Numbered from the stretch's first letter, positions 5,101 through 39,731 are shown. The stretch is 64,000 bases of DNA from Geothrix sp. 21YS21S-4 (GCF_030845995.1 NZ_CP132719.1:868001-932000), one strand, 5' to 3'. Program-made: numbers and translations. Notes: generated by a model not told the origin, from the sequence alone.

Positions 5101-5439
5101 AGCGACGGCGACATCTTCCCCTATCACTTCCGCTTCGCGGGCCTCGGTCCCCTCATCGGAAAGCGGACCTGGGGCGGCGTCGTGGGCGGCGGAAACTCGC
5201 CCCTCGTCGACGGCGGCAGCGTGTTCGTGCCGCAGTCCGGAACCAACGCGCCCACGGGCGAGTGGATCATCGAAGGCGAAGGCGTGACGCCGGATATCGA
5301 CGTGGAGAACGATCCCGCTTCGATGCTCGCGGGCCGCGACCTGCAGTTGGAGCGCGGCGTGCAGGAGGTGCTGAAGCGGATGGCCGAGAAGCCGATGGCG
5401 CTTCCCAAGCGGCCCGCGGATCCCGTGAAAACCAAATAG
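2143..5439 (+). CDS. Tricorn protease homologue, S41 family, exported
   Basis: 1,098 residues. Tricorn proteases are large serine proteases that trim peptides. Residues 1-25 form a signal peptide (RRP-poor, Leu/Ala rich, ending LSAQ), so this version probably works in the periplasm. Residues 30 to about 540 hold repeated SPDGK-type WD40-like propeller blades (SPDGKWIAF, SPDGKRIAF, SPDGKHLAF). A Lys/Asp-rich linker near residues 550-575 leads to the C1, PDZ and S41 core. His of NIGHTYT (about residue 761) and the nucleophile Ser in ETSASDGD (about residue 984) are present, as is the late Glu region TGEWIIEGEG. The start follows a cgaggtga sequence. A strong terminator lies 60 bases downstream, so it appears monocistronic. 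Confidence 0.93.
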   Translation: MMRGRPLLLSRLALCLALPAALSAQTKLLRFPDIHGDKVAFTYGGDLWTAPASGGTAARLTAHPGLELFAKFSPDGKWIAFTGQYDGDEQVYVIPSGGGVPRQLTFDPAAGPLPPRGGYDHQVVGWTPDGASVLFRAATDADGVLTRTALYTVSLKGGLPQKLPMPTAGPGSFSPDGKRIAYAPMFRDFRHWKRYEGGWAQDLYVFDLATKQQKKLAATKRTERDPMWIGDKVYFASDRDGTLNLYAADPATDAVKQLTFQKTWDVRWPSSDHQSRIVYELNGELRVMNVQDGSDRGIAIAVPTDGGASRPARINVERNIEEFALSPKGERALFVARGDLFTVPVEKGPVRNLTDSSGAHDRQARWSPDGKRIAFISDMSGEDQVYLLDQDGKGKPEALTSGLAVQLNAPAWSPDGKHLAFTDKDGVVYVLGVADRKLVKAGKDPLARVYDLSWSPDSQTLAFSLSNLNGTRSLHAWTLGDQQLRRLTGDLFQVSDPAWDPDGKYLYALSRRDYAPQISNLEFDYAGNRNMDVIAYALRKDVPHPFPPESDEVGAAPEKKEDGDKKADKPEAPKAPATVRIDWDGFEQRGTRVPLPADNLGGLEASKGFLLYSKGQPFVYGETSGRRAGNSLWIFDLKKRQESELLPEMQGWVLSQDGNKVLARVGQGPAASFQLIDAKPKATEKKTVSTKDLYVDRIPAEEWREVYDETWRRFCDFFYVKNMHGYDWKALREQYRPWLQHVTHRSDLTYVLTELISELNIGHTYTEGGDYVLPERAKVGLPGARIELDAAAGRYRLAHIYRGHNEEPKYRSPLTEVGVDAREGDYLLAIDGVELKADDSPYRLLRNKTFTVTLTLNAKPSFDGARQVTYRPIDSDANLRYLDFVLRSKESVDRLSGGKVGYLHIPDMGGPGLYEFIKWYYPQIRKEGLVVDVRANGGGNISQMILERLGKKLLGTRFGYAGEHPSTYPGTVFHGPMVALTSETSASDGDIFPYHFRFAGLGPLIGKRTWGGVVGGGNSPLVDGGSVFVPQSGTNAPTGEWIIEGEGVTPDIDVENDPASMLAGRDLQLERGVQEVLKRMAEKPMALPKRPADPVKTK

Positions 5440-5445
5440 GTCTAA

Positions 5446-5456
5446 TGGTCAGACCG
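5446..5456. promoter_or_regulatory. Putative GntR/FadR-type operator, copy 1
   Basis: TGGTCAGACCG contains the perfect inverted repeat GGTC-A-GACC. It matches the FadR-subfamily consensus TNGTNNNACNA at all but the last base. The same core occurs before the glcD-like gene and before the aminotransferase. It lies just after the tricorn stop codon and upstream of the terminator that precedes the permease gene, an unusual position if it controls the permease. Confidence 0.5.
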
Positions 5457-5499
5457 CGCAAAAAGCGCACGGAAAAATCCTCACGGAAAGTTGTGGTGA

Positions 5500-5537
5500 C
5501 AGGGCCGGAGCCGAGGTGGTTCCGGCCCTCGTTTTTT
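5500..5537 (+). terminator. Rho-independent terminator after the tricorn gene
   Basis: AGGGCCGGA at 5501-5509 pairs perfectly with TCCGGCCCT at 5521-5529. The hairpin is followed by a run of six T at 5532-5537. Confidence 0.9.
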
Positions 5538-5551
5538 GATGCGGTTTGCGC

Positions 5552-5580
5552 TTGGTGAGGCCCTTTTCCGCGGCTACTGT
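5552..5580 (+). promoter_or_regulatory. Tentative sigma-70-like promoter for the permease
   Basis: TTGGTG and TACTGT are separated by 17 bases and lie between the terminator and the permease start, so transcription could begin downstream of the hairpin. The hexamers are weak matches and this is only a candidate. Confidence 0.3.
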
Positions 5581-5606
5581 TTGGGCAGTTGATCCGGAGG
5601 TAGACA

Positions 5607-7232
5607 ATGTTGTTAGGCGCTCTCGCGGCCATGCTGCCGCTCATCGTCCTGCTCATCGGCATTCCGCTGATGATGAAACCCGCCGCGAAGGTGGCGCCCG
5701 TGGCCTGGCTGGTGACGGTGCTCGCGGCCATCTTCGTGTTCCACTTCCCGGCCAAGACGACGTTGCTGGCCGCGGTCCAGGGCGGTCTTACCGGCCTCTT
5801 CCCGATCATGTACATCCCCTTCGGCGCGCTGGTGGTCTACAACACGCTGAAAGTCACCGGCTGGATGGACAAGATGCAGAGCGCCATGGCGAGCCTCACC
5901 GTGGACCGCCGCGCGCAGGCGCTGCTGATCGCCTTCGGCTTCGGCGCCTTCCTGGAAGGCATCTGCGGCTTCGGCGCGCCCGTCGCCATTCCCGCCAGCA
6001 TCCTCATCGGACTGGGCTACAACCCGATGATGGCGGCGCTCGTGTGCCTCGTGGCCAACACCGGCCCCGTGCCCTTCGGCTCCCTCGCCATTCCCACCGT
6101 GACGCTTGCGAAGACCACGGGCCTCGACCTGATGAAGCTCTCCCAGATGACCGGCCGCTTCATGGCGCCGCTCGCGCTGATCATGGCCTTCGTCACCGTC
6201 TACGCCATGTCCAAGTCCAAGGGCATGAAGGGCGCGGTGGGCGCGATCCTGGTGTCGGGCCTCAGCTTCTCCATCACCCAGTACCTCGTGTCCAACTACA
6301 TCGGCCCCGACCTCACCTCCGTCCTGGCGGCGCTCGTGTGCCTCGTGGCCACCGCCGTCTACCTCAACTTCCAGAAGGGCGCGAAGCCCTGGCTGTTCGA
6401 GGACGAAGCGCCCGTCACCGGCGCCACCGCCGAATTCCATCCCAAGGAGCTGTTCCTCTCCTGGCTGCCCTACCTGCTTCTGGCGGTGCTCGTGATCGCC
6501 GTGAACCTGCCCAAGACCAAGCCCCTGTTCAGCGGCGCCGCGGCGGGCTGGAACTGGATGCTGATCAAGGCCCAGCTCTACAACCCCGGCAAGCTCTACA
6601 CCTTCACCTGGATCCAGAGCCCCGGCACCATCATGCTCATCGCCGGCCTCATCGCGTTCCCGTTCATGGGCATCAAATACTCCGTGATGGGCGAGCAGTT
6701 CGGCAAGACCTTCAAGCAGATGATCCCGTCCTTCATCGCGGTGGCCTGCATTCTGTCCATCGCCGAGGTGATGAACCTGGCCCTGCCCATCATCGATCCC
6801 AAGACCAAGCTGGCCGTGGTGGGCGACCTCGCGACGAAGCAGATCTCCATGGTCGCGACCATGGCGAACGGGCTCGTGGCGCTGGTGAGCAAGCACGTCT
6901 ATCCGTTCCTCAGCCCGCTGTTCGGCACGCTGGGCGTGTTCCTCACAGGTAGCAACACCTCCGCTAACGCCCTGTTCGGCAACCTCCAGAAGCTCACCGC
7001 CCAGGGCATGGGCCTGTCGGACATCCTGATGGCCTCCGCCGGCAGCGCGGGCGCCTCCGCGGGCAAGATGATCTCGCCCCAGAGCATCATCATCGCCGCC
7101 ACCGCCGTGGGCCTCGCCGGGAAGGAAGGCCTGATCATGCGCCAGACGATCAAGTACACGATCCCCTACGTGATCATCCTGGGCCTCATGGTCTTCGGCT
7201 TTGCGTTCTTGTTCCCGGGACTCGTGCCCTGA
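5607..7232 (+). CDS. L-lactate/glycolate permease (LctP/GlcA family)
   Basis: 541 residues, the usual length for LctP-family proton-coupled lactate/glycolate importers of the inner membrane. Many hydrophobic helices are visible from the first residue. Family signatures include the stretch around FLEGICGFGAPVAIPA (about residues 115-130) and the C-terminal GSNTSANALFGNLQ and GASAGKMISPQSIIIA. Start ATG is preceded by ggagg at a good distance. The family transports both L/D-lactate and glycolate (LldP and GlcA in Escherichia coli). The neighbouring glycerate kinase, malate synthase and GlcD/GlcF-type genes make glycolate at least as likely as lactate, but the substrate cannot be read from sequence alone. 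Confidence 0.93.
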   Translation: MLLGALAAMLPLIVLLIGIPLMMKPAAKVAPVAWLVTVLAAIFVFHFPAKTTLLAAVQGGLTGLFPIMYIPFGALVVYNTLKVTGWMDKMQSAMASLTVDRRAQALLIAFGFGAFLEGICGFGAPVAIPASILIGLGYNPMMAALVCLVANTGPVPFGSLAIPTVTLAKTTGLDLMKLSQMTGRFMAPLALIMAFVTVYAMSKSKGMKGAVGAILVSGLSFSITQYLVSNYIGPDLTSVLAALVCLVATAVYLNFQKGAKPWLFEDEAPVTGATAEFHPKELFLSWLPYLLLAVLVIAVNLPKTKPLFSGAAAGWNWMLIKAQLYNPGKLYTFTWIQSPGTIMLIAGLIAFPFMGIKYSVMGEQFGKTFKQMIPSFIAVACILSIAEVMNLALPIIDPKTKLAVVGDLATKQISMVATMANGLVALVSKHVYPFLSPLFGTLGVFLTGSNTSANALFGNLQKLTAQGMGLSDILMASAGSAGASAGKMISPQSIIIAATAVGLAGKEGLIMRQTIKYTIPYVIILGLMVFGFAFLFPGLVP

Positions 7233-7244
7233 GTTTCAAAGAGG

Positions 7245-7316
7245 ATCACCACCAAGGCACCAAGACACCAAGAAAAGAGAAAGCAGTTCTTGGCGTCTTC
7301 GTGTCTTGGTGGTGAA
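7245..7316. repeat. Dispersed hairpin repeat, CACCAAG family, copy 1
   Basis: The left arm reads atcaccaccaaggcaccaag and the right arm ends cttcgtgtcttggtggtga, giving a long imperfect inverted repeat about 70 bases across. It fills most of the gap between the permease and the glycerate kinase. Related copies lie near 16413, 39746, 50170 and 62643. Confidence 0.85.
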
Positions 7317-7344
7317 GTTTTTTTGAGTGAATGAGGTTCGATCT

Positions 7345-8490
7345 ATGCGCATTCTCGTGGCTCCTGATTCCTACAAGGGGAGCGTGTCGGCGCTCGGCGT
7401 GGCCGAGGCCATGGAGCGGGGCATCCATGCGGTGTTTCCGGCGGCGGAGGTGATCAAGGTTCCCATCGCCGACGGCGGCGAAGGAACGGTGGAAGCGCTG
7501 GTGGCGGCCACCAGCGGGCGGCTGCTGCACACGGAGGTTCGCGGCCCCCTCGGCGAGCCCGTCCGCGCCCACTGGGGCGTCTCCGGCGATGGAAGCACCG
7601 CGTTCCTGGAGATGGCCTCGGCCTCGGGTCTTCCGCTGGTTCCCCGAGAGCGGCGCGATCCGCGCGTCACCACCACCTTCGGAACCGGCGAGCTGATGAA
7701 GGCCGCCCTGGACGCGGGCCTGCGGAAGCTGGTGATCGGGATCGGCGGCAGCGCCACCAACGACGGCGGCACGGGCATGGCCCGGGCGCTGGGCGCGCGA
7801 TTCCTCGATGCCGAGGGCCGCGACCTGCCCGAGGGCGGCGCCGCGCTCGCTCGCGTGGCCCGCGTCGATTTGTCGGGTCTGGATCCGCGGCTGGCGGAGA
7901 CGTCGATCCTCGTCGCCTGCGACGTGGACAATCCCCTGTGCGGCCCCCGCGGCGCGTCCGCCGTCTACGGACCCCAGAAGGGCGCCACGCCGGAGATGGT
8001 CCAGGAACTGGACGCGGCCCTGGGCGTCTTCGCGGACGTGGCCACGACGGCGACGGGGCGCGACATCGCGCTCCAGCCAGGAGCTGGCGCCGCTGGCGGC
8101 CTGGGCGCGGGGCTGCTGTTCTTTACGCCCGCCAGCCTGCGGCCGGGGGTCTCCATCGTGCTCGAAACCACGGGCTTCGAGACGCTGACGGAAGGCGCCG
8201 ACCTCGTCATCACGGGCGAGGGCCGCACCGATTTCCAGACGGCCATGGGCAAGGCGCCAGTGGGCGTGGCGGCGGTGGCCAAGCGCCACGGCGTGCCCGT
8301 GATCTGCATCGCGGGCGGCCTGGGCGACGGCGCGGACGACGTGCTGGGCCACGGGATCGACGCCCTGGCCACCACCGTTCCCCAGCCCATGACGCTGGAG
8401 GCCTGCATGGGCCAGGGCGCCGAACTGGTGGAGGCCGCGGCCGCGCGGGCCTGCCGGCTGGTGAAAGTCGGCATGTCGCTGCGCGGCTGA
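7345..8490 (+). CDS. Glycerate kinase (GlxK/GarK family)
   Basis: 381 residues, typical for the family that phosphorylates D-glycerate to 2-phosphoglycerate using ATP in the cytoplasm. The N-terminus MRILVAPDSYKGSVSA and the segment PIADGGEGTVEAL are family signatures, as are GIGGSATNDGGTGMARALG and the C-terminal VITGEGRTDFQTAMGK and GVPVICIAGG. I start at the ATG at 7345, where the conserved motif begins; an in-frame ATG at 7327 would add six residues and lies inside the end of the hairpin spacer. It follows the permease and precedes the malate synthase on the same strand. It would feed glyoxylate-derived glycerate into lower glycolysis, although no tartronate semialdehyde enzymes are visible here. 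Confidence 0.92.
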   Translation: MRILVAPDSYKGSVSALGVAEAMERGIHAVFPAAEVIKVPIADGGEGTVEALVAATSGRLLHTEVRGPLGEPVRAHWGVSGDGSTAFLEMASASGLPLVPRERRDPRVTTTFGTGELMKAALDAGLRKLVIGIGGSATNDGGTGMARALGARFLDAEGRDLPEGGAALARVARVDLSGLDPRLAETSILVACDVDNPLCGPRGASAVYGPQKGATPEMVQELDAALGVFADVATTATGRDIALQPGAGAAGGLGAGLLFFTPASLRPGVSIVLETTGFETLTEGADLVITGEGRTDFQTAMGKAPVGVAAVAKRHGVPVICIAGGLGDGADDVLGHGIDALATTVPQPMTLEACMGQGAELVEAAAARACRLVKVGMSLRG

Positions 8491-8572
8491 CCCCGCGTCA
8501 ATCTGTCGCCCTTCCTCGATTTCATCGACACTGGAGGCGCCTGGGCACCGGGCGCCGGATATGGAGACTGCG

Positions 8573-10447
8573 ATGACCACGACCCTCGAATTCCGCGCCG
8601 GCGTCCTGGCGGACTACGCCGATGTCTACACGCCGGAAGTCCTCCGCGCTTTGGAGGCGCTGGCGCCCCTGGACGACCGCCGGCGCGGGCGCATGGCCGC
8701 TCGGCTCGCCCGCCGGAAGGCCCGCGCCCAGGCCGGCGAGCGCATCGGCTTCCTGGATCCCGCCGCGCTGATTCCCGGTACCCAGATCACCGTGGCGGAC
8801 GCCCGCGCCGGGAAATTCGACGGGGCGGTCATTCCCGCGGACCTCCAGCGCCAGTGGATCCAGGGCACCGGCCCCGCCACCAAGCCGCGCTCCGACGCGC
8901 GCTCGGGCATCCGCAACGCGGCCTACGCCCTGCTGTCCGGCGCCGACGGATGGATGTTCGACGGCGAGGACGCCCTGGGCCAGGTGGACACCATGTCCCT
9001 GGACAACCACCGCAACCTCAAGCTGGCCCTGGCCCGCGATCCGCTCTTTCTGGAAGTGGCGGAGGAGGTCTCCCGCGAGATGAACCAGTGGGCCCAGGGC
9101 TTCTTCGGGCGGCCCATCGTCGCGGACTGGCGGAAGCAGCTGGACTTCACCACGGTGATCTACCGCGCCCGCGGGCTCCACCTGGAGGATCGCCACATCC
9201 GCCGCAACGGCCATGGCTTCTCCGCCTCCATCGCGGACCTGGTCCTCTACGTGGTGAACAACCACGAGCGGCTGCGCGCGGCGGGCCGCAGCATCGTGCT
9301 CTACCTCCCCAAGACGCAGACGGCCGAGGACGCCGCGGTGTGGAACGCGATGCTCCTGGCGCTGGAGGCCCACCTCGGCCTGGAGCCCGGCACCATCAAG
9401 GTCTACGTCCTGGTGGAGCAGCTGGAGCAGTGCTACCAGCTGATGGAGATCCGCGCCGCCCTGGCGCCGCACTTCGTGGGCTTCAACACCGGCCGCTGGG
9501 ACTACATCAACAGCGTGTCCGACGCCCTGGCGTGGGACCGGGAGTTCGTGAATCCCGACATCAGCGCCATCACGATGACCTACGGCTACATGCGCACCTA
9601 CGAGGACCGCGTCCGCCGGGCCATGAACACGCCCGACCGCAACGGCCGCTTCGCCCTGTGGCAGGGGGGGATGGAGCCCAACATCCCCGTGGGCTCCGAG
9701 GCGGGCGTCGCCGCCAGCATGAAGCGGGCGGTGGCCGGCGCCGAGCGCGAGCAGCGGGAGGGCGCCTCCGGGAAGTGGGTGGCCCACTGGAAGATGGTCC
9801 ACATCGTGCGGCCCGTGTGGGAGCGCGTCGGCGAGGCCAACCAGATGGGCCGTGCGTTCCCCGCGCTGGGCTACGGTCCCGAGGACGCCGCGGCCCTCAC
9901 GCGGCTCGAACCCGCGCCGCGCACCGTGGCCGGCGCCCGCGACCTGCTGTCCGTGGCCCTCCAGTACGGGAACGCCTTCCTGCGCGGCTTCCAGGCCGCC
10001 GCCCTGAAGCCCGCCGATTTCTTCGGGAACGACGACGTGCTCTACCTGATGGAAGACATGGCCACGGGCGAGATCCGGCTGTCCATTCTGTGGGAGTGGC
10101 TGCACAAGGGCGCCGCCTTCACCGAGGCCGACGCAGGCACCGGCGTCGCCGCGGGAGACCGCCTGACGCCCGCGCTCTTCGCCCGCCTGCTGGAGGAGGA
10201 ATACGCCAAGCTGCGCGCCGCGGGCAACCGCGACGTCCACGACGACTCCAAGGACACCACCCTGCCCATCGCCCGGGCCATCGTGAAGACCTACGTCCAG
10301 AGCGGCGTGAAGGCGCCGTGGTACGTGGACCTGCTGAACCTCAACCTCGGCGTGGAGGGCCTGGCCGAGGCGGAAGCGCGCATCGCCCGCTTCCTCGCGA
10401 CCTTCGAAAAGGAAGGCACGCGCATCACCGAGAACCTCGACTTCTGA
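8573..10447 (+). CDS. Malate synthase-like protein (long form)
   Basis: About 624 residues. Malate synthase condenses glyoxylate with acetyl-CoA. Recognisable parts include TGPATKPRSDARSGIRN, the catalytic-core stretch GWMFDGEDALGQVDTMSLDN, YLPKTQTAEDAAVW, and VEQLEQCYQLMEIRAAL followed by HFVGFNTGRWDYINS. WQGGMEPNIP corresponds to the GGM..IP segment of malate synthase A. The protein is roughly 90 residues longer than typical AceB, the extra length lying mostly in the C-terminal half. Start at 8573 has ggag six bases upstream; the ATG at 8561 does not. It sits 80 bases behind the glycerate kinase. No isocitrate lyase is in the window, so glyoxylate could come from the downstream glycolate-oxidase-like pair. 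Confidence 0.85.
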   Translation: MTTTLEFRAGVLADYADVYTPEVLRALEALAPLDDRRRGRMAARLARRKARAQAGERIGFLDPAALIPGTQITVADARAGKFDGAVIPADLQRQWIQGTGPATKPRSDARSGIRNAAYALLSGADGWMFDGEDALGQVDTMSLDNHRNLKLALARDPLFLEVAEEVSREMNQWAQGFFGRPIVADWRKQLDFTTVIYRARGLHLEDRHIRRNGHGFSASIADLVLYVVNNHERLRAAGRSIVLYLPKTQTAEDAAVWNAMLLALEAHLGLEPGTIKVYVLVEQLEQCYQLMEIRAALAPHFVGFNTGRWDYINSVSDALAWDREFVNPDISAITMTYGYMRTYEDRVRRAMNTPDRNGRFALWQGGMEPNIPVGSEAGVAASMKRAVAGAEREQREGASGKWVAHWKMVHIVRPVWERVGEANQMGRAFPALGYGPEDAAALTRLEPAPRTVAGARDLLSVALQYGNAFLRGFQAAALKPADFFGNDDVLYLMEDMATGEIRLSILWEWLHKGAAFTEADAGTGVAAGDRLTPALFARLLEEEYAKLRAAGNRDVHDDSKDTTLPIARAIVKTYVQSGVKAPWYVDLLNLNLGVEGLAEAEARIARFLATFEKEGTRITENLDF

Positions 10448-10471
10448 CGAAGGCTCTTCGCGGCGATGTAT

Positions 10472-10495
10472 GAAGGCCCTCCTCGCGGGGGCCTT
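10472..10495 (+). terminator. Hairpin after the malate synthase gene
   Basis: GAAGGCCC pairs with GGGCCTTC around a short loop. No clear T run follows, so termination is plausible rather than certain. Confidence 0.5.
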
Positions 10496-10527
10496 CCTGC
10501 GTAAGGGGAGGTCGACGGGGGCTGATA

Positions 10528-10546
10528 TGGTCAGACCACCAGACCA
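10528..10546. promoter_or_regulatory. Putative GntR/FadR-type operator, copy 2 (best match)
   Basis: TGGTCAGACCA is a perfect 11-base inverted repeat and fits the FadR-subfamily consensus TNGTNNNACNA at every fixed position. A second half-site, AGACCA, follows directly. It lies about 220 bases upstream of the glcD-like start. A TACAAT at 10586-10591 may be a -10 box, but no convincing -35 precedes it. The rest of the 311-base gap holds no ORF I can support. Confidence 0.55.
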
Positions 10547-10758
10547 AAATGTGACCACCATCATCGATCCCCAGGCGCCTGTCCCTACAATCAGACATGG
10601 CTTCGCCCCGAGCGGGCCGGGCGGTCATTTCCCGGACTCCCGCCGACTTCTCATGCCATCGGTCCGGCCCGCGGGAAACGGCATTCCGCAGGCCGATTCG
10701 CAGCGCGGCCGGCTTACCCATGCATTGCATTCCGTCACGCCAACCACAGGAGGAGCAG

Positions 10759-12159
10759 ATGCTCGACAAAGGGGTTGTGGAAAAACTTCACGCCATCGTT
10801 GGCAAGGACAACGTGCTCACCCGCAAGGTGGAGCTGGTCGCCTACAGCTACGACGCCACCGCCGACATGCCCCGGCAGATGCCCGACGTGGTGGTGATGC
10901 CCACCACCAGCGACATGGTCCAGGAAGTCGTCAAGCTGGCGAAGGCCCATGACCTCGCCATCTATCCCCGTGGCGCGGGCTCGAACCTCAGCGGCGGCAC
11001 CATTCCGTTCAAGAAGGGGATCGTCCTCTCCTTCCAGCGGATGAACCAGATCCTGGAGATCGACACGGCCAACCTCACCGCCACGGTGCAGCCCGGCGTC
11101 GTCATCGCGGCGCTGAACGCCGCCATCGCCCAGCACGGCCTCATCTATCCGCCCGATCCCGGCACCGTCGCCACGGCCACCATGGGCGGCTCCAGCGCCG
11201 AGAACTCCGGCGGGCTGCGCGGCCTGAAGTACGGCGTGACCAAGAACTACATCATGGGCATGGAAGTGGTCCTGGCCAGCGGCGACAAGGTGCGCTTCGG
11301 CGGCAAGACCGTGAAGAACGTCACCGCCTACGACTTCTCGAACCTGTTCATCGGCTCCGAGGGCACCCTCGGGATCACCACCGAGCTGACCTGCAAGCTG
11401 ATCCCCGCGCCCAAGTTCCGCCGCACCATGATGGGGATCTTCAGCACGCTGGAGGACGCGGGCAACGCCGTCGCCGGGATCATCGCGGCGCACGTCATTC
11501 CCGCCACGCTCGAGATCATGGACAACAAGACCATCCGCACCGTCGAGGCCTTCGCCAACATCGGCCTGCCGGTGGACGCCAAGGCCCTGCTGCTGTGCGA
11601 AGTGGACGGCATGTCCCAGGACCTCGTGGACTCCGAGGCCCAGGCGGTGGTCGAGGTGCTCAAGCGGAACAACTGCGAGTACAAGGCGGCGAACACCGAC
11701 GCCGAGCGCGACCAGCTGTGGCTGGCCCGCCGCAACGCCCTGCCGGCGCTCGCGTCGCTGGACAACACCTGCATCGTCGAGGACGCCACCGTGCCCCGCA
11801 GCCGCATCACCGAGATGCTGGTGGCCTGCGAGCAGATCGCCGAGCGCCACGGCGTCACCATCGGCACCTTCGGCCACGCCGGCGACGGCAACCTCCACCC
11901 GACGATCCTCTACAACATGTACGACGAGGACCTCACCGCCCGCGTCCACCTCGCCATCGACGAGATCTTCGCCACGGCGCTGGCCCTCGGCGGAACCCTG
12001 TCCGGCGAGCACGGCATCGGCATGGCGAAGATGAAGTACCTCCGCAACGAGCTGGGCCAGAGCGGGCTCGACCTGATGCGCACCATCAAGGAGGCGCTGG
12101 ATCCTGACTACCGCCTGAACCCCGGGAAGATGGTGCCCCTGCCCGAGGTCGTGGCATGA
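10759..12159 (+). CDS. FAD-linked 2-hydroxyacid oxidase subunit, GlcD family
   Basis: 466 residues. The FAD-binding type-4 (PCMH-like) domain covers roughly residues 35-215, with YPRGAGSNLSGGTIPFKKG and PGTVATATMGGSSAENSGG. The FAD-oxidase C-terminal domain ends TLSGEHGIGMAKMKYL, with GTFGHAGDGNLHPT earlier. Such proteins oxidise glycolate or D-lactate and pass electrons to an Fe-S partner. The ATG at 10759 has aggaggag immediately upstream; the longer open frame back to 10597 lacks family similarity. Its stop overlaps the start of the Fe-S subunit gene by four bases, so the two are translationally coupled. There is no GlcE-type subunit, which also fits two-subunit D-lactate dehydrogenases. 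Confidence 0.93.
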   Translation: MLDKGVVEKLHAIVGKDNVLTRKVELVAYSYDATADMPRQMPDVVVMPTTSDMVQEVVKLAKAHDLAIYPRGAGSNLSGGTIPFKKGIVLSFQRMNQILEIDTANLTATVQPGVVIAALNAAIAQHGLIYPPDPGTVATATMGGSSAENSGGLRGLKYGVTKNYIMGMEVVLASGDKVRFGGKTVKNVTAYDFSNLFIGSEGTLGITTELTCKLIPAPKFRRTMMGIFSTLEDAGNAVAGIIAAHVIPATLEIMDNKTIRTVEAFANIGLPVDAKALLLCEVDGMSQDLVDSEAQAVVEVLKRNNCEYKAANTDAERDQLWLARRNALPALASLDNTCIVEDATVPRSRITEMLVACEQIAERHGVTIGTFGHAGDGNLHPTILYNMYDEDLTARVHLAIDEIFATALALGGTLSGEHGIGMAKMKYLRNELGQSGLDLMRTIKEALDPDYRLNPGKMVPLPEVVA

Positions 12160-13502
12160 GCGCGGACACCGCCCTTTCCGCCGCCTGTACGGCGCCCACG
12201 TACCACGACGACCTGCGCCTGGTGCGGGACGAGATCGACAAGTGCATGAAGTGCGGCAACTGCATGGCCGTGTGTCCCGTCTACTCCGTGGACAAGGACG
12301 AGATGGCCGTGACCCGCTCCAAGATCGCCGTGGCCGACGCCGTCCTGAAGGGCGACCTGTCCCTGGACGATCCCGAAGTCTCGGACATGGTCTTCAACTG
12401 CCTGGTCTGCAAGTCCTGCATGAGCAACTGCCCGACCAAGGTGGGCTACGACCGCATCGCCCTCGGCTTCCGCGCTGCCCTCGTGCGGAAGAACGGCCTG
12501 CCGTGGCTGAAGAAGCTGATCTTCTCCGCCCTCAAGAACCCCAAGGCCTTCGGCGCCGCCATGAAGGTGGGCGCGTCGCTGTCCGGCATCGCCTTCAAGG
12601 GCGACCGCAAACTGAAGGCCATCTCGCCCCGCTCGCCCTTCGCCCTGGTGGGCGGCAGCGTCGGGTTCGACGCCGAGCGCAAGCTGCCCGAGCTGACCGT
12701 CAAGCCGCTCCAGGAGCGCGTCCCCGACGTGGTGCGCCCCGCGGAGGTCAAGGTGAAGGCGGCCTTCTTCACCGGCGATTCGCTCAACCACTTTTATCCC
12801 GACACCGGCCAGGACCTGATTGACGTCCTGGTGGAGAACGGCGTGGAGGTCCACATCCCCAAGGCCCAGGCCTGCTGCGGGATTCCGGTGCTGGTCCACG
12901 GCGATGCCGAGACCGCGCGCCGCATGGCCCGCCACAACCTCGACACCTTCGAGGCCACCGGCTGCGACTACCTGGTGACGGGCTGCGGCTCCTGCGGCGG
13001 CGCCTGGCAGCACGACTACGTGGACCTGCTGGCCGGCGATCCCGTCTACAAGGTCAAGGCGGAGCACTGGGCCAAGCGCACCTACGACGTGTCCACCTTC
13101 CTCACCAAGGTGCTGTCGTTCCGCCAGCCCAAGGGCACGGTGGAGACGGTCGTCACCTTCCACGATTCCTGCCACCTGAAGAAGGGCATGAAGGTCTTCG
13201 CCGAGCCTCGCGCCATCCTGAAGAGCATTCCCGGCGTGCAGCTCAAGGAGATGTCGGCGCCCGACACCTGCTGCGGCAGCGGCGGCTCCTACGTCCTCTC
13301 CCACTACGAGACGGCGGCCACCATCGGGAAGAACAAGGCCGCGGACATCGACCGCACCGGCGCCGACATGGTCTCTACGGGCTGCCCCGCCTGCATGATG
13401 CAGCTCCTGGAGAACGTCAACCGCCACGGCCAGAAGCAGACGGTGAGCCACTACATCTCCCTGCTGGCCGAGTCCTACCGCCGCGAGAAGGCCGCCTCCT
13501 AG
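12156..13502 (+). CDS. Fe-S subunit of glycolate/D-lactate oxidase, GlcF-like
   Basis: 448 residues. Two 4Fe-4S motifs are visible near the N-terminus: CMKCGNCMAVCPVY (about residues 29-42) and CLVCKSCMSNCPTK (about 79-92). Two CCG (heterodisulfide-reductase-like) domains follow, around ACCGIPVLVHGD with GCGSCGGAW, and DSCHLKKGM with CCGSGGSYVLSHYE. This architecture is that of GlcF/LutA-type electron-transfer subunits. The first base of its ATG lies inside the last codons of the GlcD-like gene (ATGA overlap). The product presumably moves electrons from the flavin to quinone. A strong terminator follows 20 bases after the stop. Confidence 0.93.
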   Translation: MSADTALSAACTAPTYHDDLRLVRDEIDKCMKCGNCMAVCPVYSVDKDEMAVTRSKIAVADAVLKGDLSLDDPEVSDMVFNCLVCKSCMSNCPTKVGYDRIALGFRAALVRKNGLPWLKKLIFSALKNPKAFGAAMKVGASLSGIAFKGDRKLKAISPRSPFALVGGSVGFDAERKLPELTVKPLQERVPDVVRPAEVKVKAAFFTGDSLNHFYPDTGQDLIDVLVENGVEVHIPKAQACCGIPVLVHGDAETARRMARHNLDTFEATGCDYLVTGCGSCGGAWQHDYVDLLAGDPVYKVKAEHWAKRTYDVSTFLTKVLSFRQPKGTVETVVTFHDSCHLKKGMKVFAEPRAILKSIPGVQLKEMSAPDTCCGSGGSYVLSHYETAATIGKNKAADIDRTGADMVSTGCPACMMQLLENVNRHGQKQTVSHYISLLAESYRREKAAS

Positions 13503-13521
13503 GCGTCCGGATCGGCGCAGA

Positions 13522-13556
13522 CAGGAAGGCCCCGGTCGTCGACCGGGGCCTTCCTG
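13522..13556. terminator. Bidirectional terminator between convergent genes
   Basis: A perfect 16-bp stem (CAGGAAGGCCCCGGTC with its complement) closes on a three-base loop and is followed by TGCTTT. It separates the plus-strand Fe-S gene from the minus-strand M20 fusion and could serve both. Confidence 0.85.
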
Positions 13557-13568
13557 CTTTCCGTCCGC

Positions 13569-16379
13569 TCAGCCCTTGGCCAGTTCCGCCGCGAAGCCGT
13601 CCAGGGCGCGGTAGTAGGGCTCGATGCTGGGGATGTAGTGGCGCTCGCCCGCGGCGTGGGGGCCGATGCCCGTCTGGCCCCACACCACGCCCTGGCCCCC
13701 GGGCGCGAATCGCGCGGAGGTGCCCGCGCCCTTGCGGCCCAGGCGCGCCTCGCCGCCCGCGCTGCCGATCCCGGCGAGCAGCGCTTGGAGGTGGGGATTT
13801 TGGGGATCGCAGGCGACGCCCGGCTCCCACGCGGAGGGCTGGAATTCCAGCCCCTGTTCCGCGGCCAGGGCCTCGATGTCCGCCCGCAGGCCCGACACGT
13901 CGTCCTGGGGGATGGGGCGGATCTCCACGCCAAGGGCGCCCAGGTCGGGCGTGATATTGAAGATGCCGGGCGTCCCCACCTGGATGTAGGCGAAGCGGGC
14001 CAGGGACTGCCAGCCGTCGGGCGAGGCCAGCGTCAGGCGTCGGGCGAACAGGCCCCGCAGCGCCTCCCGGGCGGCCAGGAGGCGCTCCGTGAGATCCGCG
14101 CCGCCTCCCAGGCCGCTGTGGGCGCGGGCGCCCCGGGCTAGCAGCTCGAAGCGGAGCACGCCGCGGTTCTCGGTGCAGACCTCGCCCCACAGTTCCGTGC
14201 CCTTCTCGCCGGTGCGCTCGCCCGCCACGAAGAGCGCCGGAGCGTAGCCCGTCTCCCGCTTCAGGATCTCCAGGACGTGCGGCGTGCCCATGGGCTCCAA
14301 CTCGCCGTTCTCCTCGTTCCCCACCAGCAGCAGGTTCACGGGCGGATAGGGCGTGCCCTTCTTGAGGACGTCCTTCATCCACACGAGGTAGGTGGCCACC
14401 ACGGTCTTCATGTCCGCCGCGCCGCGCCCCCACAGGTAGTCGCCCTCCACCTTCGGCTCGAACTGGCTGTCGTCCGGCTCCGGCGCCACCACGTCGAAGT
14501 GGCCGCTGAGCATGGCCGGGGCCGTTTCGCCCCCGGGGAAATGGGCGAGCACCGCGGGAAAAGGGCCGTCGTGGAAGACGCGGACAGGGACGCCGTGGTT
14601 GCGGAGGTAGTCGCAGATGAAGGTGTGGGCCCGGTGGATCTCGGGTAGCCGCTCCTGGGGGCACGCGGTGACGCTGGGGATGCGCACCAGGCGCTGGGCC
14701 AGGGCGACGATCTCGGCGGCCTTGTCGGGGTAGTCCGCGTCCACCACGGTCTCGGGCCGGGGACTGAAGCGCACCGGCGCCGCGGGATCCAGCTCGACCT
14801 CGTCCCGGGCCCGCTCGACGAAGTCCTGGAGCTTGCCTTCCTCGCCGCGCAAATCGGCGAGGTGGGCGGTGACGGTCTCCACCTCGTCGCGCACCTGGGC
14901 CTTGCGGGCCTCGCCCAGCTCCACGAGCAGCTCGGGAGGCACCACGTCCGAGCTGCCCAGCTTCGCCTGGAGGCGCTGGCGGATCCTCTCGGCGGTGCTG
15001 GGCGCGCCCGCGACCTGCTCCCGCAGCGGCTGGAGGTCGTCCCAGTAGCCCAGTGCCTCCGCCAGCGGCCGGAGCTGCTGGAGCGTCCAGTCCAGGAAGG
15101 CGCGCAGCGCCACGGGCTTCGCGGTGAGCGGGTCCTCGATGACGGCGCGCAGCCCCTCGCGGGCGGCGAGGTTCTCGTTGCGGCGGGCGCGGGCGATGTC
15201 CTCGGCGTCGTAGCGGAACCCCCGCGCGAATTCAGGATCGCCGTAGAAGCGCAGCAGCAGCAGGTGCTTGAGGGTGAGGTTCGCCACGTCCAGCGCCAGT
15301 TCGTGGCCCGGGTCGTCGGTGCGCACCTCCACGCGGGCCATGGGCAGGTCGATGCGGGCGAACAGGTTCTGCCGCTCGATCTGGGCGGCCATGTCCTCCA
15401 CGTTCCGCGTCTCGCCCGCGGCGAACAGGCCCCGCGCGTAGATGTCGTGGAGCTGATCGCTGGTCACCTGGATCAGCCGCTCCACGGGCTCCGCCTGGGA
15501 GCGGGCGCGGACGGGGATCCAGTTGTTGTTCCCGAAGCGGACGCCGCTGCGGACCAGGTCGTAGGACAGGCGCAGGTAGTCGGGATGGCTGCGGTTCAGG
15601 TCCGCCACGTCCAGGGCCGGCGGGTTGGGGAAGGTGAGGTTCCGCACGGATTCGTAGGGCGTGAGCCGCACCACGGGCCGACCGTTCTCCTCCGAGGCCT
15701 GGAGGGGCGTGCTCGCGCTGGTGGCGATGAACAGGGCCGCGAAGGCCCGCATCAGCCGCGTGCCCGTGATGTAGACGCCGTTCTTGTAGTCGTCCAGGTG
15801 GCGGTCCCCGCGCTGGGCGTCGGGCAGGTGCATGAAGTCCCAGGCCAGCATGGGCTCGGGCAGGCTGAGGTTGGAGTGGGTGCCGGCGGTCGCGAGTTCC
15901 GTCCCGTACATCTCGACGCAGCGCTGGAGGTAGCGGCGCTTGGCCAGGTGCCAGGACTCCGGCACGCAGTCCGGGCCGATTTCGGGCAGGACGAGGAGGT
16001 TGCCGTGCCAGTAGTGGAGCGGCTCGCCGAAGGCCCGGCCGGCCTTCGCCAGGGCGTTGATCAGCGCCGCCTCCAGCAGCCGCCCCTCGTAGACCGCGCC
16101 CTTGGGCGTGTGGTACGGCCGCGTCACCCACTCGATCATCCAGTGGAAGACTTCGAGCTGGTGGTACTCCTCGGTCCACGGCGCCAGCACCTGCGAGCGC
16201 AGGTAGTCCACGAAGGACATCCGATCCGGCCCCGTTCCCACCGTCAGCAGGGGCCGGAACTGCGGATCCACCAGGTTCCACTCCAGCTCCAGCCCGCACA
16301 GCCCGCCCCCCGGCCGCGTCTCCAGCGCCGTCTGCCGCGCCAGCTGGAACTTCTCGACGAAAGCGTTCAGGTCGAACAC
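13569..16379 (-). CDS. Fusion: glutamate-cysteine-ligase-like domain plus M20 metallohydrolase
   Basis: 936 residues from a GTG with GGAG five bases upstream. Residues 1 to about 480 resemble the GCS2-type carboxylate-amine ligase fold: GGLCGLELEWN near residue 30 recalls the G-E-x-E metal motif, GTHSNLSLPEP lies mid-domain, and ARVEVRTDDPGHELAL recalls the late RxExR segment. A charged helical linker spans about 485-545. Residues about 550-936 form an M20 peptidase (ArgE/DapE/CPG2 type) with SGHFDVVAPE, LWGRGAADMK and VGNEENGE supplying the His, Asp and Glu metal and catalytic positions. A ligase-like and an amide-hydrolase-like domain in one chain is unusual. The ligase assignment rests on motifs only; the M20 part is secure. 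Upstream are a PLP aminotransferase and a PLP decarboxylase on the same strand. Confidence 0.75.
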   Translation of the reverse strand: MFDLNAFVEKFQLARQTALETRPGGGLCGLELEWNLVDPQFRPLLTVGTGPDRMSFVDYLRSQVLAPWTEEYHQLEVFHWMIEWVTRPYHTPKGAVYEGRLLEAALINALAKAGRAFGEPLHYWHGNLLVLPEIGPDCVPESWHLAKRRYLQRCVEMYGTELATAGTHSNLSLPEPMLAWDFMHLPDAQRGDRHLDDYKNGVYITGTRLMRAFAALFIATSASTPLQASEENGRPVVRLTPYESVRNLTFPNPPALDVADLNRSHPDYLRLSYDLVRSGVRFGNNNWIPVRARSQAEPVERLIQVTSDQLHDIYARGLFAAGETRNVEDMAAQIERQNLFARIDLPMARVEVRTDDPGHELALDVANLTLKHLLLLRFYGDPEFARGFRYDAEDIARARRNENLAAREGLRAVIEDPLTAKPVALRAFLDWTLQQLRPLAEALGYWDDLQPLREQVAGAPSTAERIRQRLQAKLGSSDVVPPELLVELGEARKAQVRDEVETVTAHLADLRGEEGKLQDFVERARDEVELDPAAPVRFSPRPETVVDADYPDKAAEIVALAQRLVRIPSVTACPQERLPEIHRAHTFICDYLRNHGVPVRVFHDGPFPAVLAHFPGGETAPAMLSGHFDVVAPEPDDSQFEPKVEGDYLWGRGAADMKTVVATYLVWMKDVLKKGTPYPPVNLLLVGNEENGELEPMGTPHVLEILKRETGYAPALFVAGERTGEKGTELWGEVCTENRGVLRFELLARGARAHSGLGGGADLTERLLAAREALRGLFARRLTLASPDGWQSLARFAYIQVGTPGIFNITPDLGALGVEIRPIPQDDVSGLRADIEALAAEQGLEFQPSAWEPGVACDPQNPHLQALLAGIGSAGGEARLGRKGAGTSARFAPGGQGVVWGQTGIGPHAAGERHYIPSIEPYYRALDGFAAELAKG

Positions 16380-16412
16380 GGATACTCCGGACTCATCGGG
16401 AAAGAAACTGCG

Positions 16413-16478
16413 AACCACCAAGTCACCAAGAACTGCGAAAGAAATTCGATTTGTCTTTCTTGGTGCCTTGGTGGTGAT
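16413..16478. repeat. Dispersed hairpin repeat, CACCAAG family, copy 2
   Basis: Arms accaccaagtcaccaag and cttggtgccttggtggt are inverted around about 30 bases. It occupies the gap between the aminotransferase stop and the fusion-gene start. Confidence 0.85.
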
Positions 16479-16483
16479 CCTTT

Positions 16484-17797
16484 TCAGTTCTGAAGGGTCT
16501 TCAGGGCTTCCATCAGCCGCTCCGCGGCGCCCTGGGTGCGCTCCACGGGCGTGGCGTAGGAGAAGCGGATCCACTCGGCGCCGTAGGGGCTGAAGAAGGC
16601 GCCGGGGACGACGGCCACGCCGTGGTTCTCGGCGAGGTGCTGGCCCAGGGGCTCGGAATCGGCCCAGCCCTGGGCGGCCACGGCGTCCGCCACGCGGATG
16701 AAGGCGTAGTAGCCCTGGCCGATGATGTGGGTCAGGCCCTGGTCCTTCAGGAAGCCGCGGAGCCAGGCGCGGCTGGCGCGGGTGGGATCGGCGATGGGCG
16801 CGGAGGCCTTCCGGAAGCCCATCTCGTAGGCGGCCATGGCCACGGCCAGGCTGAAGAAGGAAGGGATCACGGTGTGCGAGGCCTGGGCGACGATCACCTT
16901 CACCACGGCTTCGTCCGCCAGCAGGTGGCAGTTGCGGACATTGGATCCGCCGAGGCTCTTGGTGATCCCGTCGAGGATCATCAGGCGCTTGCGCAGCTCC
17001 GGCTCGAAGGCGCGCAGCAGGACGTTGACGTCGTAGGGCTCGCCGTCGCCCACGGCGTGGTACATCCAGTCGAACAGGACGAAGGCCACGCCCGCTTCCA
17101 GCGCCGCGCGGGCCAGGGCGATCTGGCGATCCAGGGTGAGGGTCTGGCCCGTGGGGTTGTCGGGGCTGGTGATGACCAGGCCCGCGACCTTGCGGCCGGA
17201 TTTCGCGGCCTCGGCCACGCAGGCCCGGATCCCCTCTTCGGAGTAGGCCCAGCCTTCCTCGGCCCGGCCCGGCGCCCACATCACGTTGGCGCCGATGCCG
17301 TAGGGGCCCCAGTTGTAGCTGATCCACGGCACGCGGCTCACCACCACCACGTCGCCCTGGCGGCCGTGGCCCAGGGCCAGCATGGCCTGGTAGGCCTTCA
17401 CCAGCCCGTCGCGCCCGCCCTGGGTGCCGATGACGTTGGCCGGCCCCCAGCCGGTGGCCGCGTCGAGCTTCCAGTACTGCTCCGCCACGGCCCTTCGGTA
17501 GGCATCGGTGCCGAAGGGCATGTCGTAGGCCGTGCCGTGCTGCTTCTGGAGCGCGAAGGCCCGGTCCAGCAGCGCCTCGGGCACGCCGGGCAGCGACGCG
17601 CCGCCATCGCCCTGGCTGGCGTCGAAGACGGGCACGCCGGGCTGCTTCTCCTGGAACACCTTCAGCGACTTGTTGATGAGGAACATCCGCGACGGCGGGA
17701 TGGGCGCCAACCGGCCCAGGTGGTCGCCCACGGGGACGAGGTTCCCTTCGGATACAGCGAAGGCAGGCGTCTCGGGAGAGAGCAGCGGCGTCGACAC
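16484..17797 (-). CDS. PLP-dependent class I/II aminotransferase
   Basis: 437 residues, fold-type I aminotransferase. Visible signatures are ITSPDNPTGQTLTLD with the conserved Asn-Pro, VLFDWMYHAVGDG supplying the Asp/Tyr pair, and DGITKSLGGSNVRNCH, where the Lys is the expected PLP Schiff-base residue. The C-terminus ends IRFSYATPVERTQGAAERL, with the Arg that usually binds the substrate carboxylate. I chose the GTG at 17797, which has GGAGG just upstream; an open frame continues to a GTG at 17908 but would cover the operator and leader hairpin. The preferred amino donor is unknown. A GGTCAGACC operator and a terminator-like hairpin lie in the leader, hinting at shared control with the carbon-acid module. 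Confidence 0.9.
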   Translation of the reverse strand: MSTPLLSPETPAFAVSEGNLVPVGDHLGRLAPIPPSRMFLINKSLKVFQEKQPGVPVFDASQGDGGASLPGVPEALLDRAFALQKQHGTAYDMPFGTDAYRRAVAEQYWKLDAATGWGPANVIGTQGGRDGLVKAYQAMLALGHGRQGDVVVVSRVPWISYNWGPYGIGANVMWAPGRAEEGWAYSEEGIRACVAEAAKSGRKVAGLVITSPDNPTGQTLTLDRQIALARAALEAGVAFVLFDWMYHAVGDGEPYDVNVLLRAFEPELRKRLMILDGITKSLGGSNVRNCHLLADEAVVKVIVAQASHTVIPSFFSLAVAMAAYEMGFRKASAPIADPTRASRAWLRGFLKDQGLTHIIGQGYYAFIRVADAVAAQGWADSEPLGQHLAENHGVAVVPGAFFSPYGAEWIRFSYATPVERTQGAAERLMEALKTLQN

Positions 17798-17838
17798 GGA
17801 GCCTCCAGGGCGGGCGGGGGACCGATATATGAAAAGGT

Positions 17839-17866
17839 CGTCCCCGCGGAAGCGCGAGGGACGACG
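17839..17866 (-). terminator. Terminator-like hairpin in the aminotransferase leader
   Basis: On the minus strand GTCGTCCC pairs with GGGACGAC and is followed by CTTTTCATAT. It could end the decarboxylase transcript or attenuate transcripts that start at the operator just upstream. Confidence 0.55.
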
Positions 17867-17886
17867 GGCGTTTCGCCAGGATAGCA

Positions 17887-17904
17887 GGTCAGACCACCCG
17901 ACCG
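17887..17904. promoter_or_regulatory. Putative GntR/FadR-type operator, copy 3
   Basis: GGTCAGACCACCCGACC shares 15 of 17 bases with copy 2, including the second GACC half-site. On the minus strand the core is TGGTCTGACC. A possible -10 box (TATCCT on the minus strand) lies directly downstream, so the site could overlap the aminotransferase promoter. Confidence 0.5.
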
Positions 17905-19388: not shown

Positions 19389-19492
19389 CCCTCCATGGTG
19401 GCCGGAAGCGGAGCGCCGCGCGATCAGCGCCGCGCAAGGCAGGGTTGCTTCCGGCGCGGGGATGCCTAGAATGATGGCAAAGGATGCAATCA

Positions 19493-19759
19493 ATGTTCAC
19501 CACCACCCTTCGCCTCGACGACGACCTGGGCCGCTTCCTCCGCGAGGCGGCGGACGCCCAGGACATGAGCGTCAACGGCTGGGTGGCGGACCTGCTGCGG
19601 CGGGAGCAGGCCGCGGCGGCCCGGCGCAGGTTGGCCGCGGATTGGGCCGCCTATGGCAAGGATGAGGCGGCCCAGGACGTGGACTACGCCTTCTCCGCAC
19701 AGGCGGACGTGGCCGCCGAGCCTCCCCACCGGACCTACCGCGCCCGGAAATCGAAATGA
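19493..19759 (+). CDS. Ribbon-helix-helix-like antitoxin of a MazEF-type pair
   Basis: 88 residues from the ATG at 19493, which has aaagga seven bases upstream; an ATG at 19484 would add three residues. The N-terminus FTTTLRLDDDLGRFLREAA followed by MSVNGWVADLLRREQ resembles ribbon-helix-helix DNA-binding antitoxins. The C-terminal half is charged and low in order-forming residues, as expected for a toxin-neutralising tail. Its stop overlaps the toxin ATG by four bases, and antitoxin before toxin is the usual order. Such antitoxins normally repress their own promoter, which here would lie in the 104 bases shared with the divergent decarboxylase gene. Confidence 0.75.
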   Translation: MFTTTLRLDDDLGRFLREAADAQDMSVNGWVADLLRREQAAAARRRLAADWAAYGKDEAAQDVDYAFSAQADVAAEPPHRTYRARKSK

Positions 19760-20118
19760 TCCGGGAGGATCTGCCCCGGTGCTCCCGCGGCGAGATCTGG
19801 CTGCTGGATTGGAACCCGCGGCGGGGCTCGGAGCAGGGCGGTTTCCGGCCCGGCCTCATCGTCCAGTCGGATCTCGGCAATCACGCGCCGGGAGCGCGCA
19901 CCACCATCGTGGTCCCTCTGACCACCCAGGCCCGGCCCTACGTCTTCTACGTTCCCCTCCCCAAGGGAAAGGACACCGGCCTGCCCGCGGATTCCTGGGC
20001 CAACGCCACGCAGCTCTTCACGGTGGACAAGAGCCGACTGGCGAAGCGCCTGGGCCGGGCCTCCGCTGAACAGCTGGAGAGCCTGGCCCAGGCGCTGGCG
20101 GGGGTCCTGGAAATCTAG
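19756..20118 (+). CDS. MazF/PemK-type mRNA interferase toxin
   Basis: 120 residues. RCSRGEIWLLDWNPRRGSEQ with GFRPGLIVQSD matches the MazF/PemK core (G-E-I-W, then G-S-E-Q-x-G-x-R-P), and TTIVVPLTTQ is the usual following strand. This family cleaves mRNA at short sequences in growing cells unless bound by the antitoxin. The gene begins inside the last codon of the antitoxin. Its stop codon overlaps the stop codon of the convergent carbonic anhydrase gene, leaving no spacer between the two. Confidence 0.88.
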   Translation: MIREDLPRCSRGEIWLLDWNPRRGSEQGGFRPGLIVQSDLGNHAPGARTTIVVPLTTQARPYVFYVPLPKGKDTGLPADSWANATQLFTVDKSRLAKRLGRASAEQLESLAQALAGVLEI

Positions 20119-32375: not shown

Positions 32376-32399
32376 GACTCCGCTAGGGGGAAAGGTCTC

Positions 32400-32466
32400 T
32401 CACCGCAGAGGGCGCAGATAAAAGCAGAGCCTGGGTTTTCATCTGCAAAATCTGCGTCATCTGCGG
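32400..32466. repeat. CGCAGAT-family hairpin before S46 paralogue 2
   Basis: accgcagagggcgcagataaaa and atctgcgtcatctgcggt are inverted arms around about 25 bases. The right arm ends roughly 30 bases before the next ATG. Confidence 0.85.
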
Positions 32467-32497
32467 TTCCTCTTCCTGAATTTCTTCCGGAGTTCCC

Positions 32498-34576: not shown

Positions 34577-34584
34577 ACTTTCAA

Positions 34585-34652
34585 CCGCAGATGACGCAGA
34601 TAAAAGCGGATCCTCGGATTTTCATCTGCGAAATCTGCGTCCTCTGCGGTTC
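34585..34652. repeat. CGCAGAT-family hairpin before S46 paralogue 3
   Basis: aaccgcagatgacgcagata and tctgcgtcctctgcggtt are inverted arms. The sequence from the hairpin to the ATG is nearly the same as in the other two S46 spacers. Confidence 0.85.
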
Positions 34653-34681
34653 CCCTTTCTGAATTTGCTTTCGGAGTTTCC

Positions 34682-36748: not shown

Positions 36749-36755
36749 ACCTTCA

Positions 36756-36832
36756 ACCGCAGATGACGCAGAGGGCGCAGATAAGGACAGGTCCTCGATT
36801 TTCTATCTGCGAAATCTGCGTCATCTGCGGTT
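36756..36832. repeat. CGCAGAT-family hairpin before S46 paralogue 4
   Basis: accgcagatgacgcagaggg and atctgcgtcatctgcggt arms are inverted around a central region slightly longer than in the other two copies. Confidence 0.85.
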
Positions 36833-36862
36833 TCCCTTCCTGAATTTGTTTTCGGAGTTCCC

Positions 36863-39065: not shown

Positions 39066-39731
39066 ATGCCCGTGCCGATGACGCTCGACCAGATCCGCTC
39101 CTTCGCCCTGGCGGAGATCAAGGCCCTGACCCTCGTCCATCCCGAGATCCGGCCGCTCCTCTACCGCGAGGGCGAGTGGCTGTTCCAGGAATCGGACGCC
39201 TCCAACAAGGTGTTCATCGTCCTTCGCGGCACCTACGCGGTGGAGAAGGAAGCCTCGGGCCTGGTGCTCGACGAGGTCACCTGCGACGCGGGACATTTCG
39301 CCATCGTGGGCGAGATGGCCTACCTGGGCGGGCAGAGCCGCACCGCCTCCGTCCGCGCCCGCACCGAATGCCACGTCCTGGTGTTGGTGCCCGCGCACCT
39401 GGAGACAGTTATGGAGCGGTTCCCCATGCTGACGCGCGTCATCTGCCGCCAGTTCGCCCTCCGCTTGAAGGCGGCGAACGAGACCATCCAGGAACTCCGG
39501 GCCGACCTCGCCTACCACGGCCACGGCGTCGAGCGCCCCGTGGTGCGGGACGCCAAGGCCCACCTGATCGTCCCCGGCAGCTGGAACCAGAAAGTGGGCC
39601 GCAAGGGCACCACCCTCTGCGGCCTGCGGATCCCCAGCAGCGAGTCCCTCCTGAACACCGGCGAACGCGTGGACTACTGCCCCGAATGCGAAGAGGCCCT
39701 GGCCCGAGGCGAGCACTGGGGAAAGGTCTGA
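39066..39731 (+). CDS. Cyclic-nucleotide-binding domain protein without a visible HTH
   Basis: 221 residues from the ATG at 39066, which has ggaggagg upstream; an ATG at 39024 would add 14 residues. Residues about 30-145 form a cNMP-binding fold (REGEWLFQESDASNKVFIVLRG, then FAIVGEMAYLGGQSRTASVRA with the phosphate-binding cassette). The rest lacks a recognisable helix-turn-helix. It instead contains GRKGTTLCGLRIP and DYCPECEEAL, so Cys 192-like, Cys-x2-Cys residues could bind a metal. It may be a sensor acting by protein contact instead of DNA binding. Neighbours give no clue to its partner. Confidence 0.75.
   Translation: MPVPMTLDQIRSFALAEIKALTLVHPEIRPLLYREGEWLFQESDASNKVFIVLRGTYAVEKEASGLVLDEVTCDAGHFAIVGEMAYLGGQSRTASVRARTECHVLVLVPAHLETVMERFPMLTRVICRQFALRLKAANETIQELRADLAYHGHGVERPVVRDAKAHLIVPGSWNQKVGRKGTTLCGLRIPSSESLLNTGERVDYCPECEEALARGEHWGKV

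Follow-up and report, generated by a model that had tools for sequence, protein, structure and literature searches.

What connects a lactate permease gene, a pair of oxidase genes and an aminotransferase gene that lie near copies of the same short palindrome? The question arises in a 64,000-nucleotide stretch of DNA from Geothrix sp. 21YS21S-4 (hereafter the window, C1:868001-932000 of a 3.08-Mb single-contig genome whose closest relatives in the named collection are uncultured Holophagaceae). A first-pass annotation, made from the sequence alone, had reported three copies of GGTCAGACC there and proposed that they are operators of a shared GntR-family regulator of the FadR subfamily. Comparison of genes and promoters across the genus indicates that two of these copies very probably, and the third possibly, serve as operators for the one FCD-type GntR regulator of the genome, an LldR-like protein encoded far from the window.

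A single FCD-type GntR gene carries the same operator

The window contains no GntR gene, as the annotation had stated and a profile search with PF00392 bears out. The genome has six PF00392 matches, of which one is the single FCD-type GntR gene (C1:1586290-1587003, at a distance of ~700 kb); the rest are UTRA-like, have the length of a MocR regulator or fall under the cut-off. The encoded regulator (238 residues) has the GntR winged helix and FCD architecture (PF00392, 8.9e-21; PF07729, 2.1e-27; both above the gathering score), and its NCBIfam matches, all below cut-off, rank LldR first at 175 bits, then PdhR (152), NanR (134) and GlcC (126). Its gene is divergent from a second lactate permease gene, lctP2 (TIGR00795, 535 bits), which is followed by a gene for a 952-residue flavin adenine dinucleotide (FAD)/iron-sulphur (Fe-S) dehydrogenase of the glcD type; the linkage to lactate genes is that of an LldR, with the substrate of the enzyme being putative.

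Within this divergent promoter, 79 bp before the gntR start and just after a TACAAT hexamer, is an exact TGGTCAGACCA, which occupies the same place in 30 of 30 fetched orthologues of gntR from the genus (our own included). It reads TGGTC-W-GACCA and thus has the form of FadR-subfamily sites, TKGT/ACMA with GT and AC separated by 3 nt (PMC4494728). The suggested search for FadR-subfamily GntR genes has therefore led to one gene, next to lactate genes and bearing the same operator in its promoter, and this supports the operator type that had been assigned. FadR-subfamily residues associated with the G in TGGT have been described (PMC4494728); Arg38, Ser50 and Gly69 of the regulator would be those residues if the helix-turn-helix numbering of that study equals Pfam positions, which is only a lead.

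The pairing of regulator and site extends to other phyla. In two deltaproteobacterial metagenome-assembled genomes, a lactate cluster contains a gntR whose product is 52-53% identical to ours, together with four sites of the form TGGT-N3-ACCA (TGGTC[A/T]GACCA in three cases, TGGTCTTACCA in one). Desulfosporosinus metallidurans has a 45% identical homologue and a site 165 bp before lctP. This cross-phylum pairing is the strongest independent support for the assignment.

A third half-site and conservation of the sites in relatives

All three reported copies are present where they had been placed in the window, which has four matches to GGTCAGACC where 0.92 would be expected (one shuffle in 100 gives as many). 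Their fit to the consensus is uneven: copy 2 matches TNGTNNNACNA exactly, and copies 1 and 3 each have one flank mismatch. The copies and the genes they were proposed to link are as follows.

5439..5456, plus strand: copy 1, read as the extended operator GGTC-TAAT-GGTCAGACC-G, the distal site of the lctP1 promoter, directly 3' of a protease stop codon
5607..7232, plus strand: lctP1, lactate permease family transporter (PF02652, 1.9e-126; TIGR00795 above cut-off)
10528..10545, plus strand: copy 2, read as the extended operator TGGTCAGACC-ACCA-GACC, upstream of glcDF
10759..12159, plus strand: glcD-type FAD oxidoreductase (PF02913/PF01565; TIGR00387 below cut-off)
12156..13502, plus strand: glcF/LdhH-type Fe-S subunit (PF02754; NF045670 best, below cut-off)
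16484..17797, minus strand: class I/II pyridoxal phosphate-dependent aminotransferase (PF00155, 1.8e-23; no NCBIfam model close to its cut-off)
17886..17903, plus strand: copy 3, AGGTCAGACC-ACCC-GACC, which overlaps a putative promoter on the minus strand, ~90 bp before the aminotransferase gene

Pattern searches of the whole genome, combined with fetched stretches, revealed an additional element. In eight of 62 near-consensus sites, a further GACC, or GGTC if on the opposite flank, is separated from the core by exactly 4 nt, against a mean of ~0.8 sites for other spacings; the extended pattern is GGTC-N-GACC-N4-GACC or, in longer form, GGTCNGACC-N4-GACC. These eight are copies 1 (lctP1), 2 (glcD) and 3, the sites at gntR/lctP2, pyruvate:ferredoxin oxidoreductase (PFOR), acetate kinase (ackA) and malic enzyme (maeB), and one coding-sequence site. 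The third half-site therefore explains why copies 2 and 3 were seen to share their next seven bases, which contain it as ACC[A/C]GACC; in copy 1 this box is on the opposite side (GGTC-TAAT-GGTCAGACC). FadR-subfamily sites often have an additional half-site 7-12 nt from their centre (PMC4494728), and the centre of the third box here is ~10 nt from the operator centre.

Conservation upstream of orthologous genes, the absence of which was to have counted against the proposal, is present for several targets. Across 12 genus genomes there are 46 exact TGGTCAGACCA matches against 9 for the control, with sites recurring at gntR/lctP2 (12/12 genomes), lctP1, PFOR, cutA-glpX, a Dcu transporter and a porin. 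When orthologous promoters were compared gene by gene, allowing one mismatch, the site was found at lctP1 in 16/21, at PFOR in 21/28, at cutA-glpX in 20-21/29 and at ackA in 9/29; PFOR and ackA carry it in this genome as well. Of the glcD orthologues, 4/4 have it. The conserved sites are at near-fixed positions, and 29 permuted half-site controls give a mean of 0.2-1.0 matches per gene set. What exceeds chance is the third half-site, the conservation in relatives and the genus-wide excess. One genome (G009, 99% complete) has no regulator orthologue and no site at PFOR, ackA or cutA-glpX, a single case.

Several other sites were set aside. The near-consensus maeB site (1478203) has the third half-site and is kept in 1/27 orthologues; it has the look of a chance or very young site and was rejected as conserved, leaving a possible species-specific target. 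Sites 2784980 and 1124262 are inside coding sequence, site 1439060 near an aldehyde dehydrogenase gene has no third half-site, and the other one-mismatch sites were taken as background, being mostly coding with a C/G centre and totalling 62, fewer than the 112 of the control. Separately, two contigs of close relatives (L186 and L200, from G062 and G013) have a pair of CTGGTCAGACCAG-like sites at a distance of 31 bp, flanked by TonB-receptor-like and nucleoside phosphorylase-like genes.

Sites and neighbouring genes in the window

Copies 1 and 2 both have good support, from comparison of promoters, as parts of the regulator's system. The place of copy 1 is occupied by a site in about half of lctP1 orthologues, usually with a promoter-proximal partner 96-112 bp downstream, which in relatives is between the -35 and -10 boxes. 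In this genome that proximal operator has decayed to TTGGTGAGGCCC, where relatives read TTGGTGGTCAGACC, and the upstream site alone is kept. Copy 1 is thus well supported as the conserved distal lctP1 site of the LldR-like system.

Copy 2 is 231 bp upstream of the glcD start, which the ribosome-binding site and homology place at 10759, not at 10597 as in the list of open reading frames (ORFs). It is at ~-65 relative to the start site predicted from a putative TACAAT -10 box (10586-10591). A site reading TGTGGTCTTACCACA or TGTGGTCTGACCACA is present, between about -233 and -246, in each of the three close glcD orthologues from other genomes. Copy 2 is strongly supported as a predicted operator of the LldR-like regulator. 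The glcD product is likely a lactate dehydrogenase flavoprotein, as judged from its homologues: Desulfobulbus has the same glcD-glcF pair within lctP-gntR-glcD-glcF clusters.

The glcDF pair (10759-13502) is 71-77% identical to Desulfobulbaceae proteins (L045-L061), with glcD alone 76-77% identical to Desulfobulbus, and few genus members have close orthologues; together these suggest that the putative lactate dehydrogenase was acquired by horizontal transfer.

The neighbouring features are these.

Directly upstream of the lctP1 region: tricorn-type protease gene, its stop codon just before copy 1
5503..5537, plus strand: terminator-like hairpin and T-run belonging to the protease gene, 3' of the distal operator and 5' of the lctP promoter (read from sequence)
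5552..5580, plus strand: putative lctP promoter (TTGGTG-17-TACTGT) with the proximal operator remnant (aligned with relatives)
Also among the genes of this region: glycerate kinase
8561..10447, plus strand: malate synthase-like protein, encoded next to copy 2 on its upstream side (PF01274; TIGR01344 below cut-off), for which no operator of its own was found
39725-39733, minus strand: fourth GGTCAGACC, within GGAAAGGTCTGACCTTTCC spanning the stop codon of an ORF ending at 39731

The fourth copy of GGTCAGACC, which the annotation did not list, is probably not an operator and unrelated to the system. It belongs to a region (39725-39830) in which a long inverted repeat (ACCACCAAGACACCAAGG...CTTGGTGTCTTCGCGCCTTGGTGGT) comes after the symmetric GGAAAGGTCTGACCTTTCC over the stop codon. 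Elsewhere in the window, a small ORF (91 residues) precedes a PemK/MazF-type toxin gene (PF02452) beside a decarboxylase gene (19484-20118), likely a toxin-antitoxin pair, and four consecutive plus-strand ORFs of 688-695 residues (30294-38950) are possibly tandem paralogues.

Alternative explanations

If copies 1 and 2 are true operators and copy 3 is a chance match, the aminotransferase is outside the regulon, a reading to which we give a little less than an even chance. The site is found in 0/27 relatives that have the neighbouring decarboxylase gene; in two of them (G033 and G002) the gene pair, the hairpin and a promoter-like TATCC are retained and the intergenic region can be aligned, but it has no operator. 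We therefore reject copy 3 as a conserved operator, and of the proposed shared control, the permease and the oxidase pair are supported by conservation while the link to the aminotransferase is not. However, copy 3 has its third half-site at exactly 4 nt, like the accepted sites, and of ~22 genome sites that have an intact GGTC-N-GACC core and no more than one mismatch in the flanks, 6 have the third box against an estimated ~0.3 by chance. Given this box and its position over a putative promoter, copy 3 may be a species-specific gain, or else a chance match. Copy 2 raises a different question, as in two same-genus genomes (G016, L257:298-975 and contig L043; G004, L258 and contig L071) malate synthase and glcD flank a second FCD GntR gene, whose product shares 27-30% identity with the main regulator. 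Copy 2 could accordingly be a relic of, or still serve, a different FCD regulator that arrived with the glcDF genes, as the high identity of glcD to Desulfobulbus, whose clusters have their own gntR, would also allow. We consider this unlikely: this genome has no second FCD gene, copy 2 is an exact TGGTCAGACCA with the third half-site as at gntR, PFOR and ackA, and contig L044, in which the second gene is likewise missing and no local gntR was seen, still keeps the operator. Since the second GntR gene is absent here, the remaining regulator probably took over the glcDF site, a step that we infer. That the palindromes are instead stem-loops (parts of terminators) or chance repeats at gene ends is highly improbable. 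Copy 1 does lie between a stop codon and a terminator, and the fourth copy spans a stop codon, but a 9-nt palindrome with a 1-nt centre can form no stable hairpin, and the sites are conserved at promoters of unrelated genes at near-fixed distances to start codons or -10 boxes.

Operators of a single LldR-like regulator are thus the favoured explanation, and several observations weigh against it besides the lack of conservation of copy 3 and the paralogue beside glcD in G016 and G004, which the glcD site may originally have served. The regulator scores 175 bits against the 311-bit cut-off of the LldR equivalog NF007741; because this curated sequence test excludes it, it is best named LldR-like, not LldR. 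The plain 11-mer TGGTCNGACCA has 6 sites in this genome against 4 for a reversed control pattern, so its count proves nothing, and the proposed genome scan finds an excess genus-wide and no clear one here. The cutA-glpX site is missing in this genome, and another genome (G019) has the regulator and no PFOR, ackA or glpX site. Two of the 29 permuted motifs match 8 and 11 of 28 ackA promoters, which makes the ackA conservation weaker when taken alone, and the related genomes in all these conservation counts are not independent.

Proposed mechanism

From the sites, their positions, their conservation and their pairing with the regulator gene, we infer binding, effector, sign of regulation, promoters and operon structure. 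A dimer would bind the palindrome TGGTC-W-GACCA, and the role of the third half-site, at a distance of 4 nt, is probably to recruit or orient another subunit. Lactate is the most likely inducer, with pyruvate a possible second. Without inducer, the regulator would repress its own gene, the divergent lctP2-dehydrogenase genes and ackA, because at gntR/lctP2 and ackA the operator is on or next to the -10 box (promoter positions were read by eye). The promoter-proximal lctP1 site of relatives likewise overlaps or adjoins the -10 box, in keeping with repression; here, regulation of lctP1 would use the distal site alone. At glcDF and PFOR, a positive or dual role, by activation or looping as in E. 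coli LldR, is possible because the operator is upstream of the promoter, at ~-55 to -65 from the putative start. In this way the uptake and oxidation of lactate would be regulated together with pyruvate oxidation and acetate formation.

The glycolate and amino-acid theme that had been suggested is not established by the conserved targets (lctP2-dehydrogenase, PFOR, ackA and, in relatives, glpX), and a lactate/pyruvate/acetate theme fits them better. In several promoters among PFOR, gntR/lctP2, glcD and ackA, we also observed a conserved TTGTGA[TC] / GGTCAC box adjoining the operator, which may be a half-site of a second, CRP/FNR-like regulator.

Comparison with known systems

Cultured iron-reducing relatives, Geothrix among them, use lactate as an electron donor. 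With about even confidence, we propose that a single LldR-like repressor is a central-carbon regulator of the Holophagaceae, coupling lactate uptake and oxidation to PFOR, ackA and (in most relatives) gluconeogenic fructose-1,6-bisphosphatase through a three-half-site operator, and that here it took over the glcDF operator of a second, lost GntR paralogue. Conservation of site, regulator gene and targets over ~30 genomes makes this a directly testable regulon, and it illustrates the gain and loss of targets: this genome lacks the glpX site and retains one site at lctP1, its glcDF site may have been taken over, and the aminotransferase gene may have acquired a new one. The regulator and operator are of ordinary known type; this target set has apparently not been reported from the group, and a literature search of partial coverage found no Acidobacteria paper with this regulon or a lactate regulator.

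Three members of the subfamily invite comparison. GlcC, the glycolate regulator, shares the GT-N3-AC spacing, and a glcD-type gene is a target here; however, the regulator matches the GlcC hidden Markov model (HMM) less well than that of LldR, the glcDF pair is elsewhere found in lactate clusters, and no glcE was seen in the glcDF locus. PdhR, of the same subfamily and operator type, is the pyruvate-responsive repressor of the pdh operon, and its expanded regulons, as in Shewanella, include lldP-dld and fermentation genes (PMC5343134). Our regulator differs from PdhR in that it scores lower with the PdhR HMM than with that of LldR, and in its core targets, lactate permease and PFOR, not aceEF-lpdA; among the promoters compared, that of PFOR carries the site (21/28). 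LldR (E. coli, Pseudomonas; lldPRD) is the closest, as the best HMM match with the same GntR and FCD domains, a TGGT-N3-ACCA operator, and a gene beside those for a lactate permease and a lactate dehydrogenase-type enzyme. The regulator described here differs from LldR in its score below the equivalog cut-off, its acidobacterial host, its fixed third half-site, and targets that reach PFOR, ackA, the Dcu transporter and, in relatives, fructose-1,6-bisphosphatase. E. coli LldR binds operators O1 and O2 of lldPRD, with a reported role in activation or looping (PMC5412874), and the paired proximal and distal lctP1 operators of relatives resemble this arrangement.

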